Assembly: GCF_001038505.1 (NCBI RefSeq)
Contig: NZ_LDPY01000005.1
Location: 1-64,000 of the forward strand
Length of the DNA: 64,000 nucleotides
Direction of reading: 5' to 3'
DNA from: Puniceibacterium sp. IMCC21224
GTDB taxonomy: Bacteria; Pseudomonadota; Alphaproteobacteria; Rhodobacterales; Rhodobacteraceae
A model generated the notes under the pieces. That model saw only the letters and a list, made by a program, of their open reading frames with translations. It had not been told where the DNA came from and ran no database searches. Below are positions 5,236-26,681 of the stretch, one piece after another (position 1 is the stretch's first letter; the number at the start of each line of letters is the position of its first letter). Made by a program: the position numbers and the translations under genes.

Positions 5236-5727
5236 TCAGAAGTCGTGGGTGAAGAGTTCGGACGAGGTGAACCGCTCGTTGAACTTCAGATGGATGCAGC
5301 GCGCACCCGCGTCGAAGCAAAATTCGCCATAGGCACCGTCGTTGTTTTCCCACCCACCATGGGTGTAACTGAGTAAATCGTAGGCCAATTGTTCGACGAC
5401 ATCTTCCAGAGAGAGGCTCCGCATTTCAACCTCGGGGGCGTCCCACGTGATCGCGGCATAGGAGATTTCGGTCGCGGGTAAGTCGACGGCCTTATCGCCG
5501 GACCAGGCACCGATGCTTTCGATCTGGCCGCTGTCACCGGCACCGTCGAAGGTCACGGTAACATGGGTGATGTCGGCTGCCATAAGGCCGTCGAACAGGC
5601 GATCCTTGTTGCCGGGCCGAAGAGCCTCGATCCGGGCGGCTTGCTCGGCATGCCCGGCGAGGATCGCCCCGAAATCGACCGTGGAAGGCCGCATAGGGGC
5701 TGTAAGAGTGGGTTCAGTATGGGTCAT
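5236..5727 (-). CDS. DUF6878 family protein
   Basis: This acidic 163-residue protein matches the DUF6878 pattern as I know it: an N-terminal LxxHAEQAARIEALRPGNK helix, THVTVTFDGAGDSGQIE, a mid-region EDVVEQLAYDLL, and the closing HGGWENNDGAYGEFCFD with FNERFTSSE. Proteins of this family are found on Rhodobacterales and other alphaproteobacterial plasmids; their biochemical role is not known. No membrane segment or signal peptide is visible. The start at 5727 is preceded by CGGAGATTCCC, a good ribosome site. The leader further upstream can fold around a GAAGAGTG loop vaguely like leader motif 1, but less convincingly. It is co-directional with the truncated DUF6915 gene. Confidence 0.75.
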   Translation of the reverse strand: MTHTEPTLTAPMRPSTVDFGAILAGHAEQAARIEALRPGNKDRLFDGLMAADITHVTVTFDGAGDSGQIESIGAWSGDKAVDLPATEISYAAITWDAPEVEMRSLSLEDVVEQLAYDLLSYTHGGWENNDGAYGEFCFDAGARCIHLKFNERFTSSELFTHDF

Positions 5728-5831
5728 GGGAATCTCCGTTCAATGTGGACTGGTCAGACCCCTCGGGTGGCGCACTCTTCTGCACCCCCAAAGGCTCAAA
5801 CCCTCCCTGGCCCTCCTCTGTCTCTCTAGTC

Positions 5832-6350
5832 TCACGCCGCGATCTGCAGCGCCCGAGCGGCAAACGCGCGCCACAGCGGATCGACAAGGCGTGCGTCCAG
5901 AAGATCGGCCCGGTGACGCAGCCGCTGCGCGAGATCGGATTCGTCCCATTCGGCAGCGCGGGCGGCTTGTGTGCGGGACTGGCAAGCTTCGGTTACGACA
6001 GCGCGGGCCTCGACTGCGTTCGCAACAGGATTGCACCATGCGACTGCGCCGTCGCTGGCGGCCCCGGCCAGAACAAGACGTTCGTCGCGATCAAGTATCG
6101 CAAGAATCTGCGGGGCGGCATCAGGGCCGATATCTTCGGCATGGTCGATCGCCCCTCGCATGGCTTCGGCCAGCGTATCGAAACGATCCAGGATCTTGGG
6201 GTGCGCCTGTCCAGACATCATGGCGGCTGGCGTTCGCGTCGCAGTCGTCAACGTAAAGGATAAACAGGGATCGGCAGGCGGGTTCGGGAGCGCCGTCGCG
6301 AAGCCCGTAGAGTGTGTTATCGGCTGGATTTGGAAAGGAAGATCGAACAT
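5832..6350 (-). CDS. conserved plasmid hypothetical protein
   Basis: The function is not recognised. The start at 6350 is chosen because GGAG sits 8 bases upstream and leader motif 1 lies directly before it; longer (6401) and shorter (6221, MMSGQAH) starts are possible. From residue 44 the protein is mostly helical and rich in Ala, Asp and Glu, with ILDRFDTLAEAMRGAIDHAE and DPLWRAFAARALQIAA as distinctive stretches. There is no signal peptide or membrane helix. It sits between the DUF6878 and DUF932 genes and shares its leader with the DUF932 and ParB-like genes, which suggests that the three are expressed under the same conditions. Confidence 0.6.
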   Translation of the reverse strand: MFDLPFQIQPITHSTGFATALPNPPADPCLSFTLTTATRTPAAMMSGQAHPKILDRFDTLAEAMRGAIDHAEDIGPDAAPQILAILDRDERLVLAGAASDGAVAWCNPVANAVEARAVVTEACQSRTQAARAAEWDESDLAQRLRHRADLLDARLVDPLWRAFAARALQIAA

Positions 6351-6362
6351 GTGGGTATCTCC

Positions 6363-6399
6363 GACGGTGCGGGAAGCCTCTCTCCCCACTTCAACCGTC
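6363..6399 (-). promoter_or_regulatory. hairpin leader motif 1, copy A
   Basis: On the minus strand an outer stem GACGG/CCGTC encloses an inner hairpin GGGAG-AGAGG-CTTCC (one G-U pair), followed at once by the ribosome site GGAG and the start at 6350. The linker TTGAAG in the 5' arm is shared with copy B. Copies B (8253-8290) and C (17692-17732) have the same architecture. Confidence 0.6.
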
Positions 6400-6446
6400 A
6401 AAGACCAAACAGCTGCCCTCTCACTCGAAGGAGCGACAACGATCCG

Positions 6447-6947
6447 TCATTTGGACGCTGGTAAATCGCTCCATCGAACCCGCAGGTAGCGACCTTCGCG
6501 TTTTGGCAATTCCTTACGGTCGATCATTCTGGCCGAAACCTGAAAGTCCTCGTTGATCTTCACGACCAATAGCTTGTTGAAATTTCCATTTGTGTCGACC
6601 ACGACCACGTCTTTCGTTTTGAACGGCGTAATGGTTTTAACTTCCACGTGGTCGTTGCCAAGCCTTCCATCAGCCCCTTGGGCATAGGTTTTATTCAGCT
6701 TGATGCCGTATGTGATAGCACCAAAAAGTTCGCCGATATCGCCGTAGACAGAAAGGTGAAGGCCCGTTTCCAGATGATAGCTCTCAGCAAGCGAGATAAG
6801 ATTTTCAAAATAGGGGATCATGGACCTGATCGCGTTCGGGTATTTTGCGCCCCATTCCTTGTAGCGAAGCTGCTCGTCGATCTCCGACCAGGTAACCCAT
6901 TCGCCATCATCGTAAAATGCGCGATCCGACCAATCTATTTCTTCCAT
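6447..6947 (-). CDS. hypothetical protein, possible PD-(D/E)XK-like fold (DUF6998-like)
   Basis: This 166-residue protein has the sequence order expected of a small restriction-endonuclease-like fold. GDIGELFGAITYGIKL provides the first helix and a Glu, GADGRLGNDHVEVKTITPF resembles a D-x(n)-E-x-K catalytic strand (Glu-Val-Lys), and a C-terminal beta-rich part follows. That resemblance, and a looser one to DUF6998-type proteins, is my inference. It has no signal peptide. It lies between orf5832 and the DUF932 gene in a block with unusual base composition. It could be a nuclease involved in plasmid defence or anti-defence, or a non-catalytic relative. Confidence 0.45.
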   Translation of the reverse strand: MEEIDWSDRAFYDDGEWVTWSEIDEQLRYKEWGAKYPNAIRSMIPYFENLISLAESYHLETGLHLSVYGDIGELFGAITYGIKLNKTYAQGADGRLGNDHVEVKTITPFKTKDVVVVDTNGNFNKLLVVKINEDFQVSARMIDRKELPKREGRYLRVRWSDLPASK

Positions 6948-7008
6948 TTATGTTCGCCCAACTTGAATCACTTCAAGCAAGTAGCAATTCAATTTGGCAA
7001 TAAAGTGG

Positions 7009-7030
7009 CCGGAGGCAACAGAGCCTCCGG
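7009..7030 (-). terminator. hairpin terminator after the DUF932 gene
   Basis: The arms ccggaggc (7009-7016) and gcctccgg (7023-7030) form an 8-bp stem with a 6-base loop just beyond the DUF932 stop. On the minus strand it is followed by CCACTTTATTG, moderately T-rich, consistent with intrinsic termination. Confidence 0.55.
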
Positions 7031-7037
7031 CACTGTG

Positions 7038-8237
7038 TCAGCCGACCCGGTCGAGGAGCTTCTTAGCGCGCCCCTCCATGTCGAGGCGGGCATCCTGCTG
7101 GGTCTTGTCGCGCGCCAGCCGCGTGATCCCCTGCACGAAATCGAAGATGCTCTCAGGCGGGCGGCCCTCTTCCATCAACACCTTCTCGATGATCTTGCCG
7201 CTCTCCGCCTTCGAGAAGCCCCGTTTGCGCAGGAAATCTGCGCGATCCTCGTCGCTGCGCGCCACGATCTGCTGTCGCGCCGCCTTGATGCCATTCATGA
7301 AACTTTGCGGCGAGGAATTGGCAAACCGCGTCAGCGCGGGCGCGGCCTCGTGGGCGAAACGCGACGCGGCATATTTCGAGTGACGGATCTTGATCTCCTG
7401 AAAATCCTCGACGCCCCAGAGGTTGCGGTTCTGGCACACAGCCCGCAGGTAGAAGCTTGCCATGCCAAGGGTCTTGGCTCCGACCTCCGAGTTCCAGCAA
7501 TAGAAGCCCCGGAAGTAGAGATCAGGGGAACCGTCGGGCAGCTTGCCCGCCTCAATCGGGTTGCGATCGTCGACCAGGAATAGGAAGATATCGCGGTCCG
7601 AGGCATAAAGCGTAGTCGTGTCGCGGCTGATCTCGACATCGGGGTTGTAGACCCCAGTCGACCAGTCGAGCACGCCCGGCACCTTCCAGCGCGTATCGCC
7701 CGTGCCATTGCCCGCGATACGCTGCACCGCCTCGACCAGCTCGTGGTCATGGATGCGGCCATAGTCAGGGCCGGTGACCGCGCGCAGTTCCGTGCAGCCG
7801 TCTTCGGTCTCGAAGGTTTTCACCTGCTCGGCGCGGTGATTGGTCAGACCGTATTGCAGGTTGATACCCGCCAACGGCGCAGGCAACTGCCGCAGGTAGG
7901 ACGCCGGCGCGCCGACGATACTGGCAAGCTGGCCAAACGCCCAATGCGTGGGCGCGACAGGTTTATGCGCTTTCGGCAGGACCAAGTGCAGCAGTTCGGC
8001 GCTGTCGCGCGCGGCCTCGACGCGGATGTCCACCGTCTGCACCACGCGGCTGCGGCTGCGCTCGGACCGACCCTTCACATTGGCCCAGAGATCATCGAGC
8101 GAGAGATACCGCTCGTCATCAGGCCGATTGAACCATTCGGACGACACCCGCCCGTTCCGCTCACCCCGGCTCACGTCCACTTTCCAGCCGCCAGCCCGCG
8201 CCGGTTGCACCGGATCCAGAACTTCTACAACACTCAT
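7038..8237 (-). CDS. DUF932 domain protein
   Basis: This 399-residue protein contains the DUF932 core: LSLDDLWANVKGRSERSRSR near the N-terminus, the THWAFGQLASIVGAPASYLRQLP segment in the middle, then ELRAVTGPDYGRIHDHELVEAV and YASDRDIFLFLVDD. DUF932 proteins are typical of phages and conjugative plasmids and have been noted among genes of plasmid leading regions; the biochemical activity is not established. The start at 8237 (MSVVEVLDPV) is preceded by AGGAG at a good distance and by leader motif 1. A hairpin terminator follows the stop. Its neighbours on the same strand include ssb and a ParB-like gene, a set often seen together on alphaproteobacterial plasmids. Confidence 0.85.
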   Translation of the reverse strand: MSVVEVLDPVQPARAGGWKVDVSRGERNGRVSSEWFNRPDDERYLSLDDLWANVKGRSERSRSRVVQTVDIRVEAARDSAELLHLVLPKAHKPVAPTHWAFGQLASIVGAPASYLRQLPAPLAGINLQYGLTNHRAEQVKTFETEDGCTELRAVTGPDYGRIHDHELVEAVQRIAGNGTGDTRWKVPGVLDWSTGVYNPDVEISRDTTTLYASDRDIFLFLVDDRNPIEAGKLPDGSPDLYFRGFYCWNSEVGAKTLGMASFYLRAVCQNRNLWGVEDFQEIKIRHSKYAASRFAHEAAPALTRFANSSPQSFMNGIKAARQQIVARSDEDRADFLRKRGFSKAESGKIIEKVLMEEGRPPESIFDFVQGITRLARDKTQQDARLDMEGRAKKLLDRVG

Positions 8238-8252
8238 CGGATATCTCCTGCA

Positions 8253-8290
8253 ACGGGCGCCGGGAGCCACTCTCCCAGCCTTCAACCCGT
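8253..8290 (-). promoter_or_regulatory. hairpin leader motif 1, copy B
   Basis: On the minus strand the outer stem ACGGG/CCCGT encloses the perfect hairpin GGGAG-AGTGG-CTCCC, followed by GGCG and then the ribosome site AGGAG ahead of the DUF932 start. Compared with copy C, the middle inner-stem pair changes from G-C to A-T with the loop unchanged, a compensatory change pointing to a selected structure. Confidence 0.7.
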
Positions 8291-8360
8291 CACCGGGAAC
8301 CCGGCACTCCTCGGACTCTAAAAATGCGGATACCCACCATCAGTCTGAGAGCAAGACCAA

Positions 8361-9437
8361 TCAGGGGAGCTTTTTGTCGGGTACCAGTGCAGCCCAGCCA
8401 CGCACAGCATCTTGGTGTGAGATTAACCATTCGCGTAAGGAACGGGTTGCGACAATCCCTGTGCGCACGGACTCAATCTGCTCATCAAAGGGCGTGAAAT
8501 GATCCAACGCCGGAGTTGGCACCACCAGCATGAGACCGGCGCGCCCTGACTTACGCTTGTTTACCGTTGGGATAGCACGGATGCCCGTTCCGGCCAAATC
8601 TGCCGAGATTTGGGCAGCAAGTTCATTAAAATGATCGCCCCACGTGTAGAAGTTGATATTGGCATTTGCCTCGCGAAGCTGATGGACGATCCGCATCTGC
8701 GGCAAGAATGTCCATTTCGGTAGGGTTTCTGGAGCGAAGATCATGGTCACACTGTCGGCGGCGCTTTCGCGCAGCATCGAGGGTCCAGGGACGAGCTCAG
8801 GTGCGGTTTCGCGCAACAGCGCGACATAACGTTCGGTAAATTGCCGCTTGGCTGGATGGACAACCTGGGTATAGCCGCGCCGCTGTTTTTCGATAGCCTG
8901 CCGCATCATGCTAGCGCGATGCGCAAGCCGACCACCCAATTCGCCTGTCTCACGAGCGGCGCGGGTTTCAAAAAACTTGGCGAGACTTTCGTAGCTGATT
9001 GCGTGGTCGAAACCCGCGGCGAAGACCGCATTTGCAGCGCGATATTCCTGCGGACAAACAAGGATCGTGCGTACCAGATGATAACCAGCCGCCTGTTCGA
9101 CAGCTTCAGCACGATAGGATTCGGCCTGACGTGGCTGTTCAGATGTGTCGAGTTTGTTCTCGATCAACAACAGGACATCCCCAGCATTCGTCTGCACCCG
9201 AACCGAAATATCGATCTCGCGTCGACTGTGGATGCGGCGCACGGAGTGCATGACCGACGCGTGCTCAACTACCAATTCACTTAGGCTGATAGATCTTAGT
9301 ATGGCCGAAATGAACAAAGGTGAGGCAGCAAATTCCTCGACTAGCAGAAGATCGATATCACGCTCAGTGGCGTGGGTCAGGACAAGCATTTCGTTCACAC
9401 ACAGCACCTCAGTCAGCAAGTTGTGCAACAACGACAT
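8361..9437 (-). CDS. PD-(D/E)XK nuclease superfamily protein
   Basis: In this 358-residue protein the N-terminal 130 residues show the PD-(D/E)XK pattern: Asp in REIDISVRVQTNAGDV followed by the strand VLLLIENKLD (Glu-Asn-Lys) and a QxxxY-like QAESYR helix. This is the arrangement seen in nuclease-fold proteins of restriction and mobile-element systems. The C-terminal 200 residues are not recognised. A shorter start at 9389 (MLVLTHATERD) is possible. The base composition looks lower in GC than that of ssb and DUF932, and codon use differs, suggesting separate acquisition. It may be a defence or anti-defence nuclease; the substrate cannot be told from sequence. Confidence 0.6.
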   Translation of the reverse strand: MSLLHNLLTEVLCVNEMLVLTHATERDIDLLLVEEFAASPLFISAILRSISLSELVVEHASVMHSVRRIHSRREIDISVRVQTNAGDVLLLIENKLDTSEQPRQAESYRAEAVEQAAGYHLVRTILVCPQEYRAANAVFAAGFDHAISYESLAKFFETRAARETGELGGRLAHRASMMRQAIEKQRRGYTQVVHPAKRQFTERYVALLRETAPELVPGPSMLRESAADSVTMIFAPETLPKWTFLPQMRIVHQLREANANINFYTWGDHFNELAAQISADLAGTGIRAIPTVNKRKSGRAGLMLVVPTPALDHFTPFDEQIESVRTGIVATRSLREWLISHQDAVRGWAALVPDKKLP

Positions 9438-9527
9438 GCGAATGTGGCATTGCTCGGGCGGGACGGTGACCAGTCTACTATTCGGTCCACTTCGTGACTG
9501 AAATGAAGGCAGGTCGCTTAAGCCGAA

Positions 9528-9549
9528 CCCGGCGGTTAACCCCGCCGGG
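9528..9549 (-). terminator. GC-rich hairpin downstream of ssb
   Basis: The arms cccggcgg (9528-9535) and ccgccggg (9542-9549) form a perfect 8-bp stem with a 6-base loop, 22 bases past the ssb stop. There is no strong T-run, so it may act as a terminator or as protection for the mRNA 3' end. A second hairpin (9564-9581) places the ssb stop codon in its loop. Confidence 0.5.
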
Positions 9550-9571
9550 CCCTAGGGGGAGACCCCGTTCC

Positions 9572-9976
9572 TCAGAACGGGATCTCGTCGTCGCGGTCGA
9601 CCAGCTCGGGGTTTTCGTTCTCAGTCGACTTCGGGCGGCTCAGGAAGTCGACCTTCTCGGCGATGATCTCGCAGCCGTAGCGGTCGTTCCCCATGCTGTC
9701 GATCCATTTGGTGTAGTGGATTCGGCCGTGGACGAGGACCTTCATGCCCTTTTCGCAATGCTCCGCGACCGTCTTGCCGAGCCCGTTGAAGCAGGTGATG
9801 CGGTGCCATTCGGTGTCCATGACCCGGTAGCCGTTGTCGTCACGCAGCACGCGACCTTCCGAGAGGCGGGGGCGCGAGGTAGCGAGGCTGAAGTTGGTGA
9901 TGTTGGTGCCGCCCTGAGTGGTGCGAGTTTCGGGTTTCTGACCGATGTTGCCGGCGAGGATGACGATGTTCTGCAT
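9572..9976 (-). CDS. ssb: plasmid single-stranded DNA-binding protein
   Basis: This 134-residue SSB has the usual OB-fold opening MQNIVILAGNIGQKPETRTT, the WHRITCFNGLGKTVAEHCEKG core and VLVHGRIHYTKW, then a short linker and the acidic tip DRDDEIPF that recruits partner proteins. It is shorter than a typical chromosomal SSB because the Gly/Gln-rich linker is small. It coats single-stranded DNA during plasmid entry and replication. The start at 9976 has AGGAG seven bases upstream, and the long leader carries hairpin motif 2. Plasmid SSBs of this kind are commonly expressed early after conjugative transfer, which fits the DUF932 and ParB-like neighbours. Confidence 0.93.
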   Translation of the reverse strand: MQNIVILAGNIGQKPETRTTQGGTNITNFSLATSRPRLSEGRVLRDDNGYRVMDTEWHRITCFNGLGKTVAEHCEKGMKVLVHGRIHYTKWIDSMGNDRYGCEIIAEKVDFLSRPKSTENENPELVDRDDEIPF

Positions 9977-9992
9977 GATAAGCTCCTGTGTT

Positions 9993-10023
9993 TCCTGTCT
10001 TCGGGACCGTCCCTTCGACAAGA
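9993..10023 (-). promoter_or_regulatory. hairpin leader motif 2, copy A (ssb)
   Basis: On the minus strand TCTTGTC pairs with GACAGGA (one G-U) around an inner hairpin GGGA-CGG-TCCC; the ribosome site AGGAG follows. The same plan occurs before the 54-codon gene at 14551-14591, where the outer stem is TCCTGTC/GACAGGA. Confidence 0.6.
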
Positions 10024-10403
10024 CCCTGAAAAAGCCCGTCGGGTGACGCGTGCACGGTGGACAGCATGGACATCGGAAACCCCCAGAGGCCCGGGGTGGA
10101 GCGGGCAGGACGCCACAGGCGGCCAACACGGCCCGGGCTGACGCGGGGTTGTGCGCAGGAGACCGAACGGGGTTAGGGGATTGTCAGTCGAAGGGATGGA
10201 CCAGAAGCCAGAGAGGCGCGGATGGCTCATGCCAGACCCTGTCATCTTGCCAATCGAGGCTGCTTGACCCCAAGCCCAGCACACCAAAGGCGGCGAAAAC
10301 AAGGATCATCTGCTCCCGCCACCCCTACCCCTGCCTGCCGGGAGTTGCGGGCCCATGCCACGACGGGCTATCGATACCGGAACATTCAGAAAACGAGGCA
10401 CCA
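10024..10403. other. long ssb leader and intergenic sequence without a recognised gene
   Basis: This stretch upstream of ssb has no convincing reading frame on either strand. It is GC-rich and contains short dyads such as CCCGACGGG next to a T-run near 10030-10040. It probably carries the ssb promoter. The right end contains the region before the decayed H-NS-like gene. Confidence 0.4.
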
Positions 10404-10738
10404 ATGGCTGATTTCGATCTCTAGGCACCGTCGCTCATCGAGCTGAAGAAAATGCAAAATGACGTTACCAACGCGATTTCCACCTTCGAGGATCGGCAGA
10501 AACCGGAAGCCCGCGCCAGAGATGAGGCTTTGTCCACAGAGATGGGCAACTCCCTTGTCGAACTGATAGGCATCGACAGGAAAACAGCCCGCGTGCCTGC
10601 CGTTGCAAAATACCGGTAACCTGAGAGCCCGGCGATCACCTAGTCTGTCCTTGGGAGCAAGCCTCACCAGTTCATGGACGGGCTGACCGCTGGAAGAACA
10701 GCAAAGGGCTCTGCTATCGGTTGGGAACCGGAGAAAGA
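10404..10738 (+). pseudogene. H-NS/HvrA-like histone-family gene, nonsense-decayed
   Basis: The plus strand reads MADFDL, a stop, then SLIELKKMQNDVTNAISTFE, DRQKPEARARDEAL and PAVAKYR, a stop, PESPAIT, a stop, and finally FMDGLTAGRTAKGSAIG. This is the usual layout of alphaproteobacterial H-NS family proteins: an N-terminal coiled dimerisation part, then KYR-P-x-x-P-x-x-TW and a WF-x-x-GL-x-x-GK-T motif that binds AT-rich DNA. One stop replaces the Trp of the TW motif. Three in-frame stops mean it is dead. Such proteins silence foreign AT-rich DNA, so a plasmid copy would have been a stealth factor. Confidence 0.72.
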
Positions 10739-10871
10739 GTTAGCGGCGCTTACTTGACACTTGTGAAGCGTTGATGCCGCCGTGCAACTTCACGAAAAAG
10801 GACATTGGCCTGCAGTCCAATATCTATAAACGTCAAATAACTGCACATTTTCCTTAAAAATGAATGGCCTG

Positions 10872-13631
10872 TTAGTTGCTTCGATTAGTGTTCTCCATGG
10901 CATCTCGCGGATCGGTTATAGGTGCGGTTGTACGGCATCTAGGAAACGACGAACATCCGAGAAACGGCTGATTATTCTGCCCACTTCTAACCACCATCGT
11001 TCCCTGATTGCAGGTTGGACATGTAGCACCATCGGATATGGGCTTTTTCAGTCGAACCGTATGAGCTGACGTGGTTTCATTTGAGCTAAAAGACAAAAGT
11101 CTTTTGGTGTAACCACATCCTGGGTGCGCGCTACAGGCTTCGAATGGGCCATACCTACCAGTTTTCTGACTCAATGTGCCCGTTTCGCATTTTGGGCAAA
11201 ACTTCATCGTGGCCCCGTCTATTTTAATCTCGGTATGGCCATCCTTTGCGAGCTCGATAACAAACCGTGAAGGCTTGTCTTGCAGTGTATAGATACGTGT
11301 TTGGCGACGGGCGCGCGTCAGCGAAACATAGAATAAGCGACGTTCCTCAGCTAATGGGAAATCATCAGGCTCTGGCATTGCCAACTGCAGCACCGGATCA
11401 TCAACGATTTGACTGGGAAAACCCATCAGGCCTTCCGTCACATTGAGCAGCATAACGTAGTCAGCTTCCAGGCCTTTCGAGGCATGCGCCGTAGAGAAGC
11501 TGAGATCGAGTTGACTACCGAATGCACGCTTCCATGCGTTCAAGCTTGCAGGCTTGTCCTTGTGGTACCGTCCCAGCAGCATGACGGTGACCTTCTTGCC
11601 GTTTGCAATATCGAGATCACCAGCCTTTGCTGCACCAAATAGTTGCTCTAAATGCCTCTCCAGGCGATCTATCGCAGAGCTCATCGTCTCGGCTGCGAAT
11701 ACATGTAACGGCGGCGTCTCATAGGTGTTCGTGGTTTCGACGGTCTTCTTGATCTGTTTCGGGTTCTTCTGGATGAATTCGCTTGATGCGTCGCACAAGA
11801 TCTTCGGGCATCGAAATGTCTTACTCAAAGTCAGCCGGGTCGAATTCGGAAATGTCTTTTCGAAACCCGTCATGACCGAGATGTCTGCCCCCGCAAAGCG
11901 GTTGATGCCCTGCCAGTCATCGCCGACAACACACAGGTTTGACGACGGTTCAGCACTTTCCTTCAGAGTCTTGAGAAGTCGCATTTTTGCTTGCGACACA
12001 TCCTGAAATTCGTCCGCGAGAACCATTTTGTATGGGCTCTTGTATGTGCCGCACTCGATGTGGTGGATGGCGGCCAGCAGCATATCGTCAAAATCGACGC
12101 TTTCTTCTGATTGCAGAAGTCGCTGCCATTCATCGGCGACCCTCTCGTAAATCTTCACAAAACGGGTCAGCCGCTCACGGTGACCTCGTTCAAGCTTAGC
12201 GATTGCGTTGTGAAGATCCTGATGGCTTAGGCCATTGCTTTTGACGTGCTGTTGAAACGCGCGGATTGTGGAGGCCAGCTGTTTTGCTGGGATGGGTTCT
12301 TGTCCGGGCGACGGGCGGCTCTCATCAAATTCAAGGATCTCACCACGCTGTTCAAGCTCTACCCTTAGGCGATCAATGTCGTCGCCATTTCTTAGACCGT
12401 GCGATGTGGTTTCAAAGAGCTGCGTCTTCTTTTCTTTGTGCAGCGTTCTCTTCCAGCGGACTCCTGCGACATAGTCGCCGGAAAAATGCGCCGGTGCATT
12501 TCCTTTCACGTCGAGCGCAAAATGCTCGTGATAGAGATTGGTGCGAGGGTAGTAAAAATCTGGATGGTACTGCGAATGTTCCTCGGAGACGGTGTCATGC
12601 TCATAGGGAGATTCGTATTGATACGGGACGCCATAGTAGAACAGGAAGTCGCAAATCATCCGCTCTTCTTGGCTCTTCACGTACTTTCCGTCTGCAGTTT
12701 GAATGCTGCCTTGGCCGGTCGCGTCGGAGCGAGGTTGTTTGATGCTCTCCCATTCCCCAATGTCGCGACCGTAGACTGTCCTGAACATATCCCAGTCCAG
12801 TCTGAAACGAGGATCTCGCTGGCACAGATCATCCACAATCTCGGAGATTGCTTGAACATCTCCGCCAAGCTCAACCCAATCCGCCAATCTGGGTTTACGC
12901 CCAGTGCTTTTCCCGATCACTTCGAGACCAAAGGCGTTAAATGTCTTTACGCTGATAAGCCCGATATTTTCTATTCCGCTAAGGCGTTCTTTGATACGAG
13001 CTTCCAACTCGTCTTTCACAGACCGGTTGAACGCCAGTATCAAGATTTGCTCAGGCAGCGCGAGGCCTTCTCTCAATACATATCCAACACGTGCCACGAT
13101 CGTAGAGGTTTTCCCGGAACCGGCAGCCGCAACGATTTGCACTGCGTCGTCCATGCAGATGCAACATTCCACCTGCTCATCAGTCAAAGGGTTGCGTTCG
13201 ACCGAAGAGAAAAAATCAGATAGCTTTTCTCTCTGACTTATAAGAAATCTAGAATTGTGATGTGCGAACTCCAAACCGAGCGCTTCCTCGCACCGGGTCA
13301 AGCGAGATCTAGCTATTGAATCTGATATTATTGAAATACCCTGTTTAGCGACCGGCTCCTCCGGCGAGCCCCCATTTTCATAAGGTGGGAATTTCTGGGT
13401 GATCTCTGATGCTAAACTTTTCGGGATCCATTTGCTCCAGTTGACGGAGGGCTCCCACTTGTTTCGCCACTCAGAGAAATCTGAATCACTGCCAATAGAA
13501 GGAGGCTTTGGTTGCTCTATCTTGTTCTGTGTTTTTTGGTGTCTGGAGCCCATATGCGGGCGCTTTTCGTCATTGCCAAGCAATGAGCCCAGCCCACCCA
13601 GAACGGCAGCACCAATTAACCATTCAATCAT
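10872..13631 (-). CDS. UvrD/Rep-family helicase with embedded nuclease-like domain and C-terminal zinc fingers
   Basis: This is a 919-residue superfamily 1A helicase. A hydrophobic N-terminus (MIEWLIGAAVLGGLGSLLG) could be a membrane anchor. Walker A AAAGSGKTSTIVAR lies at about 168-181, LADEFQDVSQ is the Walker B/motif II, GDDWQGINRFAGA is motif III, and TAHASKGLEADYV with YVSLTRARRQ are motifs V and VI. Between motifs Ia and II an inserted segment has YQYESPY and HPDFYYPRTNLYHEHFALD, resembling Vsr/PD-(D/E)XK nuclease inserts. The tail has two Cys4 fingers of the topoisomerase type (CPKCETG and CPTCNQG). Base composition is lower in GC than the neighbours. It resembles helicase IV and also defence-associated helicases; its role is inferred as DNA repair or plasmid defence. 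Confidence 0.78.
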   Translation of the reverse strand: MIEWLIGAAVLGGLGSLLGNDEKRPHMGSRHQKTQNKIEQPKPPSIGSDSDFSEWRNKWEPSVNWSKWIPKSLASEITQKFPPYENGGSPEEPVAKQGISIISDSIARSRLTRCEEALGLEFAHHNSRFLISQREKLSDFFSSVERNPLTDEQVECCICMDDAVQIVAAAGSGKTSTIVARVGYVLREGLALPEQILILAFNRSVKDELEARIKERLSGIENIGLISVKTFNAFGLEVIGKSTGRKPRLADWVELGGDVQAISEIVDDLCQRDPRFRLDWDMFRTVYGRDIGEWESIKQPRSDATGQGSIQTADGKYVKSQEERMICDFLFYYGVPYQYESPYEHDTVSEEHSQYHPDFYYPRTNLYHEHFALDVKGNAPAHFSGDYVAGVRWKRTLHKEKKTQLFETTSHGLRNGDDIDRLRVELEQRGEILEFDESRPSPGQEPIPAKQLASTIRAFQQHVKSNGLSHQDLHNAIAKLERGHRERLTRFVKIYERVADEWQRLLQSEESVDFDDMLLAAIHHIECGTYKSPYKMVLADEFQDVSQAKMRLLKTLKESAEPSSNLCVVGDDWQGINRFAGADISVMTGFEKTFPNSTRLTLSKTFRCPKILCDASSEFIQKNPKQIKKTVETTNTYETPPLHVFAAETMSSAIDRLERHLEQLFGAAKAGDLDIANGKKVTVMLLGRYHKDKPASLNAWKRAFGSQLDLSFSTAHASKGLEADYVMLLNVTEGLMGFPSQIVDDPVLQLAMPEPDDFPLAEERRLFYVSLTRARRQTRIYTLQDKPSRFVIELAKDGHTEIKIDGATMKFCPKCETGTLSQKTGRYGPFEACSAHPGCGYTKRLLSFSSNETTSAHTVRLKKPISDGATCPTCNQGTMVVRSGQNNQPFLGCSSFPRCRTTAPITDPRDAMENTNRSN

Positions 13632-13748
13632 TCGGTTTCTCTATGGGATAGAGTTGAAGATCACAGTTGAAAACCCGAAGAAACCAAGTAAGCATCTGAC
13701 TCATAGCATTTGTTAAGGGGGGTGTACTCAAGATTGCGCGGTGAGACA

Positions 13749-14138
13749 TCAGAACGGCGGATCATCGTCGAATGAATGTCTTGGCTGCCCATCGTTAGGC
13801 ACAGATGTGCTTTCTGGCCCGCCACCTGGCTTTCCATCTGTGAAATAAATTTGGTAACCTTGATCACTACGGCTACGAACATGTGAGCGTGCGTTCGAAC
13901 TATCCCAGGCAGAAAGTTCCTCGTATGTACTAAATCTAGGTCCAGGTGCATAACCCTTTGCCATCATAGCAGCTGACCAAGCGTCAATGCCACCCTGTTC
14001 TTTGGAACTAGCATGTGATGATTCGCCGTTCCAATTTGACTTTTCGCTTCGACTTGAGCGTACATATTCGCGCGAATAGCCGTCGATTATATCCACCGCG
14101 TCTGCACCAGCGCCGTATACATCTTCAAAATCGCCCAT
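13749..14138 (-). CDS. hypothetical acidic protein
   Basis: This 129-residue protein starts at 14138, where GAGGTG lies 6 bases upstream; a longer frame to 14213 lacks a ribosome site. The sequence is polar, low in complexity (Ser, Gly, Asp), and ends PRHSFDDDPPF. That acidic Phe-terminated tail resembles the SSB-type tip DDDPPF/DDEIPF, which in SSBs binds repair and replication proteins. No domain is recognised. It lies immediately upstream of the helicase on the same strand, so it may be its partner or an SSB-tail mimic; this is inference from the C-terminus only. Confidence 0.5.
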   Translation of the reverse strand: MGDFEDVYGAGADAVDIIDGYSREYVRSSRSEKSNWNGESSHASSKEQGGIDAWSAAMMAKGYAPGPRFSTYEELSAWDSSNARSHVRSRSDQGYQIYFTDGKPGGGPESTSVPNDGQPRHSFDDDPPF

Positions 14139-14215
14139 ACTATCACCTCTTTTCAATTGACGAGAGTAGAAGCTTTTTCGCGCAAAAGAATGGCTTTTCT
14201 TAGTCGCGACCAACG

Positions 14216-14376
14216 TCCAATCAACTCATTGCCCAACTCCTGGCAAACGCCACCCCAAAGATACATAGGCTTGGCGTTGTTGCACAGCATTGACTGTGGG
14301 CGATTCACTTCGTGAAGCAATGCGTTTAGGTGCGGCGGTGCCATGCCCGAGCTCGTGGAAAGTGAGGCCAGAGGCC
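14216..14376 (-). pseudogene. possible HExxH metallopeptidase (ArdC-like) remnant
   Basis: In one minus-strand frame the sequence SGEASGLTFHELGHGTAAPK runs on for about 40 codons to a stop at 14218. HELGH is the zinc-binding HExxH motif, and ArdC antirestriction proteins have a similar FHELxHxT stretch. There is no start codon or upstream part, and part of the sequence near 14273-14292 resembles an insertion-sequence end (gttgttgcacag). It could be a coincidence. Confidence 0.25.
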
Positions 14377-14380
14377 TCAC
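14362..14380 (-). terminator. hairpin at the end of the small membrane protein gene
   Basis: gtgaggcc (14362-14369) pairs perfectly with ggcctcac (14373-14380) across a 3-base loop. On the minus strand it is followed by TTTCC. It overlaps the stop codon at 14377-14379. Confidence 0.5.
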
Positions 14381-14541
14381 CCGAAGGGATCGTATTCCGA
14401 AACGATTACGACCTCGTCGCCGTCGATTTCATCGGCGGGGACGGCGCCGAAGGTTCCATCTCCTGCCTGGAAGACGACGATCGAGACCATGAGCGTGGCG
14501 GCGAGGGAGGCTGCGAAGGCGTGTGCATCTTTGCGGGACAT
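14377..14541 (-). CDS. small single-pass membrane or exported protein
   Basis: The 54-codon gene starts at ATG 14541 with AGGAG 9 bases upstream. After MSRKDAHAF the stretch AASLAATLMVSIVVF is hydrophobic and long enough for one membrane helix or a signal anchor. The C-terminal half is acidic (ADEIDGDEVVIVSEYDPFG). The function is unknown. The leader is unusually structured, with motif 2 directly before the ribosome site and two more perfect hairpins upstream. A hairpin (14362-14380) overlaps the stop codon. The shared leader with ssb suggests the same timing of expression. Confidence 0.6.
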   Translation of the reverse strand: MSRKDAHAFAASLAATLMVSIVVFQAGDGTFGAVPADEIDGDEVVIVSEYDPFG

Positions 14542-14550
14542 CTGTTTGGC

Positions 14551-14591
14551 TCCTGTCTTGGAGGCGAGGGACCATCCCCCGCGCGACAGGA
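14551..14591 (-). promoter_or_regulatory. hairpin leader motif 2, copy B
   Basis: The minus-strand outer stem TCCTGTC/GACAGGA is perfect and encloses GGGA-TGG-TCCC. The ribosome site AGGAG of the 54-codon gene overlaps the 3' arm of the outer stem, so folding would hide it. Confidence 0.6.
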
Positions 14592-14621
14592 CCCCGCAGG
14601 CCCGAAGACTGGCTGACATCA

Positions 14622-14672
14622 CCGGGTGCGTTCGGCTCGTCCGAATCCACCCGGCGGCACGGGCTTGCCCGT
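14622..14672 (-). promoter_or_regulatory. tandem hairpins in the leader of the small membrane protein gene
   Basis: ccgggtg (14622-14628) pairs with cacccgg (14648-14654) and encloses ttcgg/ccgaa (14631-14635, 14641-14645). Next to it acgggc/gcccgt (14659-14672) forms a second perfect hairpin. Together with motif 2 this makes a 120-base leader folded into three structures. Confidence 0.5.
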
Positions 14673-14883
14673 AGTCCGACCCCTCGCGGGTTGATCTCGA
14701 AGACAGAATTTGGGCCAAGGAAGGGAATGGCGAGCGGGGGATGGTTCCCTGACGACTGGAGCGCGTTGTCCCGCTGATGCTTTTGCCGCCAGCCTCCCGG
14801 CTAAGCTCTTGGTTGAAGACCTCCTTCCTTGGGGATGGCTCCTTTGGCGCCCCGCGACATCGCGGGACAAGGTTGTGATGGAT

Positions 14884-14911
14884 GAGAGGCCCGCGCTTGG
14901 GCGGGCCCCTC
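14884..14911 (-). terminator. hairpin after the 157-residue hypothetical gene
   Basis: gagaggcccgc (14884-14894) pairs with gcgggcccctc (14901-14911) with a single G-U, 15 bases past the stop of the gene at 14926. No T-run follows, so termination strength is uncertain. Confidence 0.45.
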
Positions 14912-14925
14912 GGTTTCAGTTGGGC

Positions 14926-15399
14926 TCAGGCGGCCAGGTCCGCGCCCCCTGCCCTATCGCTGTTTTCATCGCCGACGATCTCGAGACGTGCATTGCGATA
15001 GCCCTCCCGCGCGATCCAGAGCTCGGCCGCGGTGATGGATTCCGCCAGATGCAGCAGTTCCGTGTTGCCACCGAAGTCGAGAAGTACGCGCACTTGGCCG
15101 GGCTTCGGCTCCTCGGCCACCTCGAAGACAAGGCGGCTGTCCGCCGAGTGACTGCGCATGATGGTGACGAGAATGACCCCGTCAGAGGCGAAGTTGCCCT
15201 CATGCAGCGTGAAGGAGGCCGGTGCCGTCCAGGTCGGATAGGACCGGGGCGGTTCCTTCTTCACGAGACGGCCGACGCCGTTCGAACGCTCCCAGGCCGC
15301 CAGCTTCTTGGTGAAGCGTGCGGGCGGCTTGGGGCTGCCGTCGGTGTAGCGAATGAGCGCCCCGAGGGGTGCGGTGTCGATGATGGTTGTTGCAGACAT
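14926..15399 (-). CDS. conserved plasmid hypothetical protein
   Basis: The function of this 157-residue protein is not recognised. It starts MSATTIIDTAPLGALIRYTDG with GAGGAATC upstream, has basic patches (RFTKKLAAWERSN, LVKKEPPRSYP), then a beta-rich region with TLHEGNFASDGVILVTIMRS and VRVLLDFGGNTELLHLAESI. No membrane segment or signal peptide is seen. It lies just downstream of the ParB-like gene on the same strand. A short inverted repeat in the leader (GAGTGCG-ATTACT-CGCATTC, one mismatch) may be an operator. Confidence 0.6.
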   Translation of the reverse strand: MSATTIIDTAPLGALIRYTDGSPKPPARFTKKLAAWERSNGVGRLVKKEPPRSYPTWTAPASFTLHEGNFASDGVILVTIMRSHSADSRLVFEVAEEPKPGQVRVLLDFGGNTELLHLAESITAAELWIAREGYRNARLEIVGDENSDRAGGADLAA

Positions 15400-15466
15400 G
15401 ATTCCTCATTCAGAATGCGAGTAATCGCACTCATCCTATTGATATTGTTCAGTTATCAGGTGGTTT

Positions 15467-15487
15467 GGGGGCGGAATGCCCGCCCCC
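15467..15487. terminator. GC-rich hairpin between the ParB-like and downstream genes
   Basis: gggggcgg (15467-15474) pairs perfectly with ccgccccc (15480-15487). It lies 13 bases past the stop of the ParB-like gene; no clear T-run is present on either strand. Confidence 0.45.
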
Positions 15488-15499
15488 TGCTGGATTATG

Positions 15500-17677
15500 T
15501 TACTCGGCGGCCAGCATCGACGCGCCTTCAGCAGGCAGGTCATCCGTCAGGAACGCGGGAAGGTCAGCTTCACTGACGCTGTCAGCCGCTTCGGCATCCA
15601 CCCCCTGCCTTTTGGCACAGTCCTTACCGTCCAGCGCCACGAGATCGACACGGCGCAGGACCTCGGGCAACCAGCCGCTGTCCTTCAGCAAGCGCTCGGC
15701 CTCACTGGCCATCTCGCCTTTCTTCAGGTGATCGAGGAGTTGGGCAGTCCCCTCCCCCTTGGCCTCACGTACGGCCTCAAGAATGCGGGCCTTGGGCACG
15801 CGGTTGAGATAGGTATCCACCGTCGGCTCCCAGCCCGCCTCGACCATGTCGAGATCAAGGGCTTGCCCCACGATATCCGCCTGCGCCATGCGCCGGGTGA
15901 GACCACCTGCAGAGATGCCTGCCCCGTAAGGGTTCACCTTCTCGTGCAGCGCGTTGACGCCGAAGCTGAGGCAATGCGCCAGCAAAGCCAGCCGACTGCC
16001 CTGGTCGAGGACCGTCAGATAGTCCCATAGTGCCGCATCATCGCCAGGCGGCAGATCGGCTTCCCATTCCGCGTGACGCTCGTCGACCAGCTTGGCCACC
16101 ACGCTGTCCTTCAGATCGCTCGCTTGCGCTGACATATAGACCTGACGCACGGAGGCCTCGAGGCAGCTGCCAGACGCTCCGGAGGTGCGGAAGGTGTCAG
16201 TGACGAGCTTCAGGAGCAGAAGCGTCAGCGCGACATCCGGCGAGCGCCCGATCGCTTCACGCAGCGCCAGCGTCCGGTGGGCCGTCAACTCCATGACCAA
16301 CCGCTCGGGCAGCGGCTTCAGCGATCCTTCATCCTCATCCTCCGGCAAGTCAGCTCCGATCGGCTGGCCACCTGACGTGATGACGGTTCCGACATGACCG
16401 GCACTGGCATGGCCATCGGTGAGATCACGATCATCCCCCTGCCCCGCCACCGCAGGATCACTACCATCCTGGACCGCGGTCTCCTCAACGGGCTCATCCT
16501 CTGGACGCACATATCCGCGATAGACTGCGAGCGCGCCGTAGCGATCGAGCGTGACGAACGCCCCTGCCCGTCCGATTTCCAACGGATCGAAGATCAACGG
16601 CCGGGTCTCGATCTTTTCCATCTCCGCTTCCAACACGCCGAGCCGCGTGTCGATCTCGTCAGGCAATTCATCCTGACCCGAGTATTCCTCTTCCAGCGCC
16701 CGATACTCGGCGAGCAGCTTGGCATGAGCCGCACCTTCGTCATCCGTCATCGGCGCCGGATCACCCGACAGGGACCGCAGCCCATGGCTGTAGCCGTAGG
16801 GCAGGTCAAGCGCGACCTCGATCCACTTCCAGCCCTCAACCGCAACCGTCTCAGCCTCGGCCTGGAGTTTTTCAGTCACCAGCCGATCGAGCAGGGCAGG
16901 GTCCTCGAGCCAACCGCCGTCATCACCCTGAAAGAGGTCATGCAGCATCGTGCCACCAGCCGCTTCATAGGTATCAATACCCACAAAGAACGCGCGCCGG
17001 TCGGAAACCCTGACCGAGGTCTCCGTCAGCATGCGCCGGATCTGGAATGGCTCCTTGTTCCAGGATGAATTGATCACATCCCAGACTTGAACCTGACGCG
17101 CGTGATCGAGGTTCACGGTGAAGGCCATGAGCTGCTCCAGCGTCATGCCATCCTCGGCGTAGACCTCAAGCAGGGCAGGGGCGACGGCTGCGAGCTTCAG
17201 GCGCTGCTTCACGATCTGCGGCGTCACGAAGAAGGCGGCAGCAATCTCTGCATCGCTCTGACCCTTGTCGCGCAGGGACACAAACGCGCGGAACTGGTCG
17301 AGCGGGTGCAGGGCAACACGCTGCATGTTTTCCGCAAGGGAATCGTCCTCGGCCAGGATCGTGGACCCCGCATCCCGCACGATGCAGGGAATGGGCGTCG
17401 TCTTCGCCAACCGCTTTTGCTTCACCAGCAATGCCAATGCTTGGAACCGACGGCCTCCGGCGGGGATCTCGAACGTGCCGGTCTCGGTGCCATCGTCAGC
17501 CAACACGGGCCGCACGCTCAAGCTCTGCAAGAGGCCACGGCGGGCGATGTCTTCGGCCAGTTCTTCGACCGACACGCCAGCTTTGATGCGCCGCACATTG
17601 GACTGGCTCAGCACCAGCTTGTCGAAAGGAATATCCCGGGACGAGGATAGGGTGATTTTCTGGACAGCTTTCGTCAT
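15500..17677 (-). CDS. large ParB/RepB/Spo0J-family plasmid protein
   Basis: This 725-residue protein begins with a ParB N-terminal domain: DIPFDKLVLSQSNVRRIKAG, the EIPAGGRRFQALALL box and AEDDSLAENMQRVALHPLDQFRAF. A helix-turn-helix follows (SDAEIAAAFFVTPQIVKQRL). The long C-terminal half is unique to this plasmid family and has a very acidic centre. Proteins of this type recur on Rhodobacterales and rhizobial plasmids beside DUF932 genes. They are distinct from the partition RepB at 19128 and are probably not the centromere-binding protein. ParB-like enzymes bind or hydrolyse CTP, and some act as nucleases; the role here is inferred as an early-entry or regulatory factor. The start at 17677 has GGAGAA upstream and leader motif 1. 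Confidence 0.85.
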   Translation of the reverse strand: MTKAVQKITLSSSRDIPFDKLVLSQSNVRRIKAGVSVEELAEDIARRGLLQSLSVRPVLADDGTETGTFEIPAGGRRFQALALLVKQKRLAKTTPIPCIVRDAGSTILAEDDSLAENMQRVALHPLDQFRAFVSLRDKGQSDAEIAAAFFVTPQIVKQRLKLAAVAPALLEVYAEDGMTLEQLMAFTVNLDHARQVQVWDVINSSWNKEPFQIRRMLTETSVRVSDRRAFFVGIDTYEAAGGTMLHDLFQGDDGGWLEDPALLDRLVTEKLQAEAETVAVEGWKWIEVALDLPYGYSHGLRSLSGDPAPMTDDEGAAHAKLLAEYRALEEEYSGQDELPDEIDTRLGVLEAEMEKIETRPLIFDPLEIGRAGAFVTLDRYGALAVYRGYVRPEDEPVEETAVQDGSDPAVAGQGDDRDLTDGHASAGHVGTVITSGGQPIGADLPEDEDEGSLKPLPERLVMELTAHRTLALREAIGRSPDVALTLLLLKLVTDTFRTSGASGSCLEASVRQVYMSAQASDLKDSVVAKLVDERHAEWEADLPPGDDAALWDYLTVLDQGSRLALLAHCLSFGVNALHEKVNPYGAGISAGGLTRRMAQADIVGQALDLDMVEAGWEPTVDTYLNRVPKARILEAVREAKGEGTAQLLDHLKKGEMASEAERLLKDSGWLPEVLRRVDLVALDGKDCAKRQGVDAEAADSVSEADLPAFLTDDLPAEGASMLAAE

Positions 17678-17691
17678 CAGTTCTTCTCCAT

Positions 17692-17732
17692 GACGGGCGC
17701 CGGAAGCCACTCTTCCGATCTCACTTCCCGTC
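17692..17732 (-). promoter_or_regulatory. hairpin leader motif 1, copy C
   Basis: On the minus strand the perfect outer stem GACGGG/CCCGTC encloses GGAAG-AGTGG-CTTCC, followed by GGCG and the ribosome site GGAGAA. The loop AGTGG and the GGCG joint are identical to copy B while one stem pair has co-varied. Confidence 0.7.
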
Positions 17733-17770
17733 ACCCTCAAACCAACACTCCTTTCCCTCTCACGGTGGTT

Positions 17771-24791: not shown

Positions 24792-25802
24792 TCAGGGCAC
24801 CTGCCGCTGCTGATGGAGCCGCGCGGCCGCCTGAACGAGATCCGCCAAATGCGGGCCAGCGGTGGTAGAGCAAGGCCCAGCTTTGGGCCGAGGCAGGACG
24901 GCATCGCTGAAGGATGTGACCAGTCCGCTCCAAGCTGGCGCAGCCTGAGCGACGCGTTTCCAATAAGAGATCGCGGGACTTCTTCGCGTTCCGAAAGGCG
25001 TCGACCGCCCTTCCGTCAATTGCCGAAGCAGATGATAGCGATCTCGATGAGGGAGGCGCGCGATGGACATGCGCTGTTTACCAAATTGAAAGCAGGCTGA
25101 TCCAAGAAGGTCCGGGAGAGATCGCCCCTCTGCCATTCGATGCCCTGCTGCATGCAAACGAAGCAGATCGTCGATCAGGCGCTCCAGACGCCGAACTCCG
25201 TTGGCGGCGGGACGGGTGCGTTTGCAGAGGGCCGCGCCGCACCAGGCGCAGATCTGATGCGGCACAAGACGCTTCTGGCTGAACGGAGCCAATCCTTGTC
25301 CGCAAGACGGGCACCTGTCTCGAAGCCGACAACCGTGACGAAAGCAAGAAACGCGTGTCGCCAGGCTCCAGCCTCGGCGAAAATAGGGCGTTTCGTCTTC
25401 CGCCAGACAGGCCGGGCAGAATTGCAGCCAGGTCGCCTGCGTCTTTGGTGCGCAACTCTGCTGAGGCGATGCCCGCAGGGGCAAACGCAACCGGGCCAAG
25501 GGGTCAGGAGCAATGGTCAGAGCCGCGATGTCTTCCAAGGGTATGTGGGTATGTTCTCCCAGAAACTGCAGAATGCGATCTGGCATCGCTCGATCAAGAC
25601 GTGCCGACCAGTTCTGACCTGGCGCTCCGAGAAGCGCACCAAAATAGTGCGGAGGTATGCCGTTTGCGTAAGCGAGGCGGTGCAGCCAGCTCGACAGAAG
25701 TTCACCTGGTGCGGGCATAATGCTCATGGGCCAACGGTTTCCCGCCGCGCCTTCATACCGCTCTGCAGGCGTCACGGAGATCCCGGTCGGCCCAAACCTC
25801 AT
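24792..25802 (-). CDS. tniQ: TniQ family protein
   Basis: This 336-residue protein starts at 25802 with ATGA overlap to tniB. It has the TniQ opening PAPGELLSSWLHRLAYANG and two zinc-binding clusters: FCPACLAEDETPYFRRGWSL with FRHGCRLRDRCPSCG, and ICAWCGAALC. TniQ proteins are target-selection adaptors of Tn7/Tn5053-like transposition and link the TniB/TnsC ATPase to a target. No TnsD-like DNA-binding extension is obvious. It completes a tniA-tniB-tniQ operon without an adjacent tniR. Confidence 0.85.
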   Translation of the reverse strand: MRFGPTGISVTPAERYEGAAGNRWPMSIMPAPGELLSSWLHRLAYANGIPPHYFGALLGAPGQNWSARLDRAMPDRILQFLGEHTHIPLEDIAALTIAPDPLARLRLPLRASPQQSCAPKTQATWLQFCPACLAEDETPYFRRGWSLATRVSCFRHGCRLRDRCPSCGQGLAPFSQKRLVPHQICAWCGAALCKRTRPAANGVRRLERLIDDLLRLHAAGHRMAEGRSLPDLLGSACFQFGKQRMSIARLPHRDRYHLLRQLTEGRSTPFGTRRSPAISYWKRVAQAAPAWSGLVTSFSDAVLPRPKAGPCSTTAGPHLADLVQAAARLHQQRQVP

Positions 25803-26665: not shown

Positions 26666-26681
26666 GAGGTGGTCCGGCACC

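Follow-up and report, generated by a model that had tools for sequence, protein, structure and literature searches.

Why should three unrelated genes of one bacterial plasmid begin with the same folded leader? We analyzed a stretch of 64,000 nucleotides (nt) from Puniceibacterium sp. IMCC21224 (contig NZ_LDPY01000005.1, positions 1 to 64,000; hereafter, the window), in which an earlier note had described one layout, an outer stem, an inner hairpin and a ribosome site, at three places on the minus strand. All three copies (A, B and C) are present where they had been placed; they are real, and they are members of a large family. The reading that we favor, with a probability of roughly 0.6, is that the element is a cis-regulatory RNA leader of ~90 nt that would act at translation and would be common to the establishment and anti-restriction genes of alphaproteobacterial plasmids and related elements. 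Our comparisons demonstrate a conserved two-part hairpin predicted for the sense strand, a stem base closed by the Shine-Dalgarno sequence in most copies, unrelated genes behind it and an orientation shared with the relaxase gene; the served genes probably lie in the leading region.

The three hairpins occupy 6363–6399 (copy A), 8252–8291 (copy B, once its closing G-U pair is counted; the earlier limits were 8253–8290) and 17692–17732 (copy C). The outer stems are GACGG/CCGTC in A, GACGGG/CCCGTT in B and GACGGG/CCCGTC in C, and they enclose GGGGAG/CTTCCC with the loop AGAGG in A, GGGAG/CTCCC with AGTGG in B and GGAAG/CTTCC with AGTGG in C. The middle pair of the inner stem changes from G-C in B to A-T in C, and the inner stem of A holds a single G-U, both as had been claimed; furthermore, the G-U intermediate of the middle pair is carried by a fourth copy in the same genome, at position 176665 of the contig (C5).

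Is this a local repeat or a family? Searched over the 5.56 Mb genome, a covariance model (R1) built from copies B, C and the fourth copy, with copy A excluded, found six copies, each of them on the minus strand of C5 (positions 6356, 8245, 17685, 154270, 156114 and 176665), and recovered copy A at 29.8 bits (E-value 2.3e-4 in that genome). The exact pattern AGWGGCTYCCGGCGCCCGT matches B, C and the fourth copy, there at C5:176673. C5, the contig of the window, has 186,862 bases with repABC and, judged from its genes, is a plasmid. A second model (R2), made from 47 aligned copies chosen with an 88% similarity limit, scored the same six copies at 62 bits or more and gave six weak matches besides (12.8–19.7 bits, E 0.015–0.82), one of which is the leader of a DUF6878 gene.

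Covariance searches, which the earlier note had set as a test of its reading, found many further copies, most of them before a small number of gene families that belong to plasmids and elements like them. Of 292 genomes from the order, 95 had R1 matches (E ≤ 0.1), and of 385 from the class, 29 had R2 matches (E ≤ 0.01); in a phylum sample, whose share of other classes is not shown, R2 matched in 34 of 398 genomes (E ≤ 0.01), all of the same class. One further search covered 80 genomes that had matches and were picked by hand. A pattern scan of genome contigs gave at least 120 loci; among the matches listed, 113 were from Alphaproteobacteria, 107 of them placed in eight orders, one was from a gammaproteobacterial metagenome-assembled genome and six were unresolved. 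That gammaproteobacterial assembly (RI_92, locus L219) bears two leader copies, on a contig that is either misbinned or a real transfer beyond the class. Three IMG/VR contigs (L255, L256 and L257) also bear the leader, and these "viral" contigs may be plasmids or integrative elements, not phages; 62 viral-contig loci with a DUF932 relative were set aside and not used. In a BLAST search of 72,556 plasmid records (E ≤ 1), copy B had 170 matches, copy C 175 and copy A 48. Klebsiella records, aligned over 33 bases, are among the weakest rows listed for copy A and seem to be chance matches.

The conserved unit is larger than the hairpin. In 219 non-redundant copies, conservation starts abruptly 5' of the hairpin with a purine element, AGAG-NN-AGAGG, whose AGAG lies exactly 28 nt before GACGG in 134 copies and one base off in 63, and is placed within ~3 nt in 197. 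The unit of ~90 nt then runs through the two-part hairpin with its conserved loop to a Shine-Dalgarno GGAG and the ATG, with the consensus AGAG-NN-AGAGG-NN-GGCNGG-N5-CC-GTGACGGG-TTGGAGGTC-GGGAG-AGAGG-CTCCC-GGCG-CCCGTC-GCGGAG-AANNNCCN-ATG. The first A of the loop is unvarying (160 of 160 copies in the larger set described below), and the commonest loops there are AGAGG (100), AGAGT (22) and AGTGG (15). The statement that the fold rather than the sequence is conserved therefore needs to be divided: the fold is indeed kept, and so is part of the sequence, including the loop A and the purine element. Further upstream, no column of the 219 copies exceeded 0.07 bits at −230 to −111 or 0.12 bits at −110 to −29, and neither a −35/−10 sequence nor an AT-rich block was conserved.

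Where does the leader stand relative to the start of translation? Our open reading frame survey started from 391 matches and, with 10 rows left out, covered 361 unique copies, of which 348 are followed by an ATG frame (at least 40 amino acids long or running off the sequence; ATG was favored in the search). The ATG lies 13–15 nt after CCGTC in 289 of these 348; another 46 have no CCGTC to measure from. For the pairing of the ribosome site, we used a set of 160 copies, which contains the 47; 14 rows that were weak or truncated, and copies that were 88% similar, had been taken out of it. The first GG of the Shine-Dalgarno GGAG pairs with an upstream YC in 140 of the 160, and the stem reaches at least 2 base pairs into the Shine-Dalgarno in 144 and at least 4 in 82. 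The mean unpaired probability, in the 143 of these leaders that could be mapped, was 0.08 for the GG and 0.88 for the loop. The type represented by copy C lacks the upstream YC, and its ribosome site would therefore be less closed.

The fold itself is supported by the pattern of changes. In the 47 copies (MAFFT alignment), 94.6% of 794 cells were paired, compared with 90.1% in shuffles and 38–51% when the arms were slid against each other, and nine pairs contributed 35 cells with two-sided changes versus 10.7 in the shuffles. Both stems covary, and RNAalifold returned the same two helices with one more pair into the Shine-Dalgarno. The earlier expectation of covariation beyond phylogeny was borne out in the 160-copy set with our own tree-based approximations of R-scape: 7 of 18 structure pairs reached p ≤ 0.01, compared with 0.30% of 3987 other pairs, under a tree null that keeps column rates.

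Which strand folds? Sense-strand G-U pairs outnumber A-C mismatches by 120 to 16 in the 47 copies, by 240 to 35 in a set of 105 aligned to the model (kept from 286 once 7 weak rows, and copies similar at 85%, had been dropped) and by 370 to 57 in the 160, where the parsimony changes are 198 versus 50. Because of this excess, we take the sense (mRNA) strand to be the one that folds. Similarly, in the 329 of the 348 copies with a frame that were compared, the sense strand was more stable than the antisense in all 329 with RNA energies (−30.1 versus −20.3 kcal/mol) and in 324 with DNA energies. As far as changes in sequence can tell, the leader works as RNA, and three features, its fold on the sense strand, a stem base that overlaps the Shine-Dalgarno and an ATG at a kept spacing, point to translation. 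Of the three functions that the earlier note had offered, translational control is thus the best supported, and a single-stranded promoter is disfavored, as the complement folds less well and there is no −35/−10.

These results also bear on a double-stranded operator, in which the inverted repeat would bind a plasmid regulator, for example, the ParB-like protein itself. The repeat is long, and ParB-like genes are the commonest behind it, but pairs of the inner stem covary as the sequence there changes, the wobble pairs fit one strand, and the distance is kept to the ATG and not to a promoter; we consider such an operator highly improbable. Two other candidates were rejected on inspection. A leader peptide inside the hairpin (GTG ACG GG...) does not keep its frame, as arm and loop lengths vary, and a transcription terminator or attenuator would call for a U-run, which is absent after the hairpin.

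What do the served genes have in common? Behind the 348 copies, we found 175 ParB-like genes, 73 DUF932 genes, 59 ArdC-like genes, 19 genes of a 182-amino-acid family (p182), 5 of its RadC-like relatives of 172 amino acids and 17 others, some of which are very short or broken frames. The p182 proteins and their relatives span 172–185 amino acids. An annotated Sulfitobacter plasmid carries genes for a ParB-like protein, SSB, DUF932, a RadC-like protein, DUF6878, strawberry notch, toprim, DUF2493 and WGR, followed by a relaxase, on a shared strand and interrupted by a few genes of the opposite strand; the plasmids pRA04 and pCHQ1 partly resemble this module. Leading regions are enriched for anti-defence, SSB and methyltransferase genes, according to the parts of Samuel et al. 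2024 (PMC11541004) available to us, and the portion consulted of PMC7213743 reports that ArdC of R388 is needed in recipients and not in donors.

The orientation of the leaders agrees with this gene content. We compared 173 motif rows with 146 relaxase rows (PF03432) among the matches listed, to which the following counts are confined; 64 motif rows had no listed relaxase on their contig and 17 had none within 150 kb, which left 92 copies on 45 contigs. Copies and relaxase were on the same strand in 44 of these 45 contigs, and every copy was upstream of the relaxase in 37; upstream co-oriented copies lay at a median of 23.6 kb from it. Contigs with several copies had all of them on one strand in 51 of 54 cases. 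In pCHQ1, an inverted repeat lies in the gap before the relaxase, and TATCCTG-C comes after it on the plus strand; the pattern has two more matches, on the minus strand and outside the gap. We take this to be the nic site by the RP4/VirD2 rule, with the plus strand transferred and the leading region to its right; therefore, in pCHQ1, the entering strand would be the template of the leader genes, and these genes would lie in the leading region. A nic site of the MOBP type was not recognizable on C5 or on NZ_CP136688.

Could the leader then be a single-stranded DNA promoter like Frpo, in which the incoming strand folds and lets the host RNA polymerase begin on the leading-region genes ahead of second-strand synthesis? 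The gene content and orientation fit the leading region, there are several copies per element, no separate promoter is conserved upstream, and with DNA energies, the template strand still reaches a fold of about −10 kcal/mol. On the other hand, this model has the complement fold, where each sense G-U becomes a C-A mismatch, and yet the sense G-U prevails; with the transferred strand (T-strand) taken as the template strand, the sense strand is the stabler in 329 of 329 copies (RNA) and 324 of 329 (DNA). Nor does inspection of the consensus and the upstream profile show a −35/−10-like or AT-rich block, and the near-fixed ATG spacing, with a Shine-Dalgarno overlapping the stem base, also speaks against it. 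We therefore regard a promoter of this kind as very unlikely.

The leaders cluster by the gene that they serve (39 label changes, versus 77 on average in shuffles). No concerted evolution was seen within a replicon: there were 63 locus-label changes, compared with a shuffled mean of 63.5. Since the leaders group by gene and not by locus, a common and conserved factor, of the host or of the element, would fit better than a fast-changing plasmid-specific one. Clustering by gene family is also what functionless relics travelling with a few gene families would show; two-sided changes that keep the fold, and a loop and purine element kept across unrelated genes and eight orders, make relics the least credible explanation.

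Several observations weigh against a translational leader of leading-region genes. A stricter all-against-all null, with changes spread evenly over columns, leaves only pair 55–67 at E < 0.05, with structure pairs as four of the five top-scoring column pairs. In the 160 copies, A-C exceeds G-U at pairs 50–71, 55–67 and 37–79. The stem reaches less than 2 base pairs into the Shine-Dalgarno in 16 of 160 and exactly 2 in 50, and Shine-Dalgarno pairing is barely above that with shuffled partners (0.92 versus 0.90, and 0.96 versus 0.95) because the Shine-Dalgarno hardly varies. As to orientation, the copies on one contig (G255:C5) are opposite to its relaxase. Only two plasmids have a readable nic site, and pColt5.8d (Rhizobium rhizogenes; L080, 19566–19657) disagrees with pCHQ1: its single copy, which stands before a short, broken ArdC-like frame, is on the lagging side of a transfer origin presumed from a MOBQ-type site, with its sense strand as the transferred strand. 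No trans-acting factor was found; ProQ/FinO is one conceivable candidate. Finally, in only 96 of 207 leaders is the start no farther than 80 nt from an upstream same-strand frame, so that promoters of their own at variable distances are possible.

The short distance from the stop of an upstream frame in those 96 leaders, together with the sense-strand RNA fold and the purine-rich stretch before the stem, would also suit an element of mRNA processing or stability, a hairpin that protects or marks the 5' ends of cistrons after cleavage of a leading-region transcript. Such a role leaves unexplained both the pairing of the Shine-Dalgarno with the upstream YC and the strong conservation of the loop, and we consider it unlikely. 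In the translational leader that we prefer, mRNA would be made from promoters at variable positions, and the hairpin would keep the ribosome site closed until it is opened by something that recognizes the purine element and the loop, or by a ribosome arriving from upstream; alternatively, a factor may hold the ribosome site shut. ParB-like, DUF932, ArdC and further entry genes could in this way be switched together at translation, for example, on arrival in a new cell.

How does the leader relate to known RNA families? Rfam 15 gave no match at gathering score in the window or at five further loci; with permissive filters, it gave only a chance match in 12.8 kb and, at two more loci, nothing but terC RNA and chance matches away from the copies. 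The terC RNA (RF03067) is above its gathering score in pRA04 (L079, 27295–27361, minus strand); ~85 nt further on is the annotated start of a Bax inhibitor-1/YccA family gene. The radC RNA (RF01754) had nothing above cut-off in the Puniceibacterium genome; of 55 genomes, only G548 had matches above it, and among the matches listed, none coincided with a leader copy. In G548, four radC RNAs lie on one strand at 37277–77169 of a 1.1 Mb contig (C4; L350 and L351), and the leader copies are on a different contig. The radC RNA resembles our leader in having several copies on one contig, as in G548, and differs in its 149-position model with several hairpins and another structure; the radC RNAs of G548 are likewise different in appearance. 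In Table 1 of PMC2864571, a paper seen here in part, it is listed as certainly an RNA and probably cis-regulatory, from Proteobacteria.

The STAXI motif (RF01728, Weinberg 2010) is, in the same portion of PMC2864571, likewise structured and repeated near SSB, topoisomerase, anti-restriction and integrase genes, and the question of RNA or single-stranded DNA is raised there as well; unlike our leader, it consists of tandem pseudoknots and is listed for Enterobacteriales. It gave no match to the leader copies in the whole-Rfam scans (window, five loci, 12.8 kb and two loci). Frpo/ssi elements, in the sections of PMC11541004 available to us, also stand before leading-region anti-defence genes, several per plasmid, and are read from the T-strand. 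In our leader, on the other hand, the sense strand folds, there is no −35/−10, and the sequence is GC-rich with a near-fixed start-codon spacing.

A Shine-Dalgarno held in a stem is shared with the autogenous leaders of ribosomal proteins, with RNA thermometers and with CsrA operators. The present leader differs from those in being common to unrelated genes, with no known effector and no Rfam match in our scans. In the operator consensus of CsrA/RsmA, GGA occupies a hairpin loop and overlaps the Shine-Dalgarno; the commonest loops here, AGAGG, AGAGT and AGTGG, are without GGA. The leader family is apparently undescribed; the literature search met no title or abstract opening that describes the element, which is weak evidence of novelty, as it took in few subscription papers.

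Within the window, the flanks of the three hairpins follow the consensus order, all on the minus strand. The purine elements are CGAGTGAGAGG at 6417–6427 (copy A, 28 nt before GACGG, the commonest spacing), AGAGTCCGAGG at 8309–8319 (copy B) and AGAGGGAAAGG at 17750–17760 (copy C), and the Shine-Dalgarno GGAG lies at 6359–6362 (at the stem base), 8245–8248 and 17686–17689, respectively. Copy A is followed by a gene of 172 amino acids (5832–6350, ATG at 6350) that matched no Pfam family and whose relatives on other plasmids are annotated "DNA repair protein RadC". Copy B precedes a DUF932-like gene of 399 amino acids (7038–8237; 21.9 bits in Pfam, just below the cut-off of 23) and copy C a ParB-like gene of 725 amino acids (15500–17677; ParB_N above cut-off), directly after repC. 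No Pfam family is common to the three. Near repABC, at 24792–28367 of the minus strand, are genes for TniQ, TniB and a Mu-type transposase, which we take to be a Tn5053-like transposition module.

A second type of leader stands before the DUF6878 gene (5236–5727) of the window, at 5723–5830 of the minus strand, with a degenerate AGAG..AGAGG element and a different hairpin (R2 14.9 bits, E 0.24). This type has the AGAG..AGAGG element, a hairpin with a GAGAGAG loop and CTCTC before the Shine-Dalgarno; 35 pattern matches gave 16 non-redundant cases, with a weak RNAalifold consensus fold (−5.8 kcal/mol). In pCHQ1 and pSchITTGS70b, it stands before genes with the annotation strawberry notch, and elsewhere before other genes; further second-type leaders were seen in L081 near 26299, 27460 and 43752. 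The second type probably belongs to the same regulon. A wider proposal, which we put forward tentatively and hold to be rather doubtful, is a class-wide entry regulon in which one conserved factor, acting through AGAGG motifs, would keep establishment and anti-restriction genes of the leading region translationally silent on a resident plasmid and leave them transiently open in a newly entered cell, the strawberry-notch leaders included.

The timing of entry genes in plasmids from outside the enterobacteria is, to our knowledge, largely an open question. Samuel et al. 2024 (PMC11541004) looked for Frpo elements with five known sequences and a −35/−10 consensus, and their main text, so far as the parts available to us go, is without the words Alphaproteobacteria and Proteobacteria. 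A leader defined by its sequence across eight orders offers a handle on the regulon, is a tool for annotating establishment and anti-restriction genes and is open to a simple mutational test. The class-wide regulon, if true, would be the alphaproteobacterial counterpart, at the RNA level, of the Frpo single-stranded promoters of enterobacteria.

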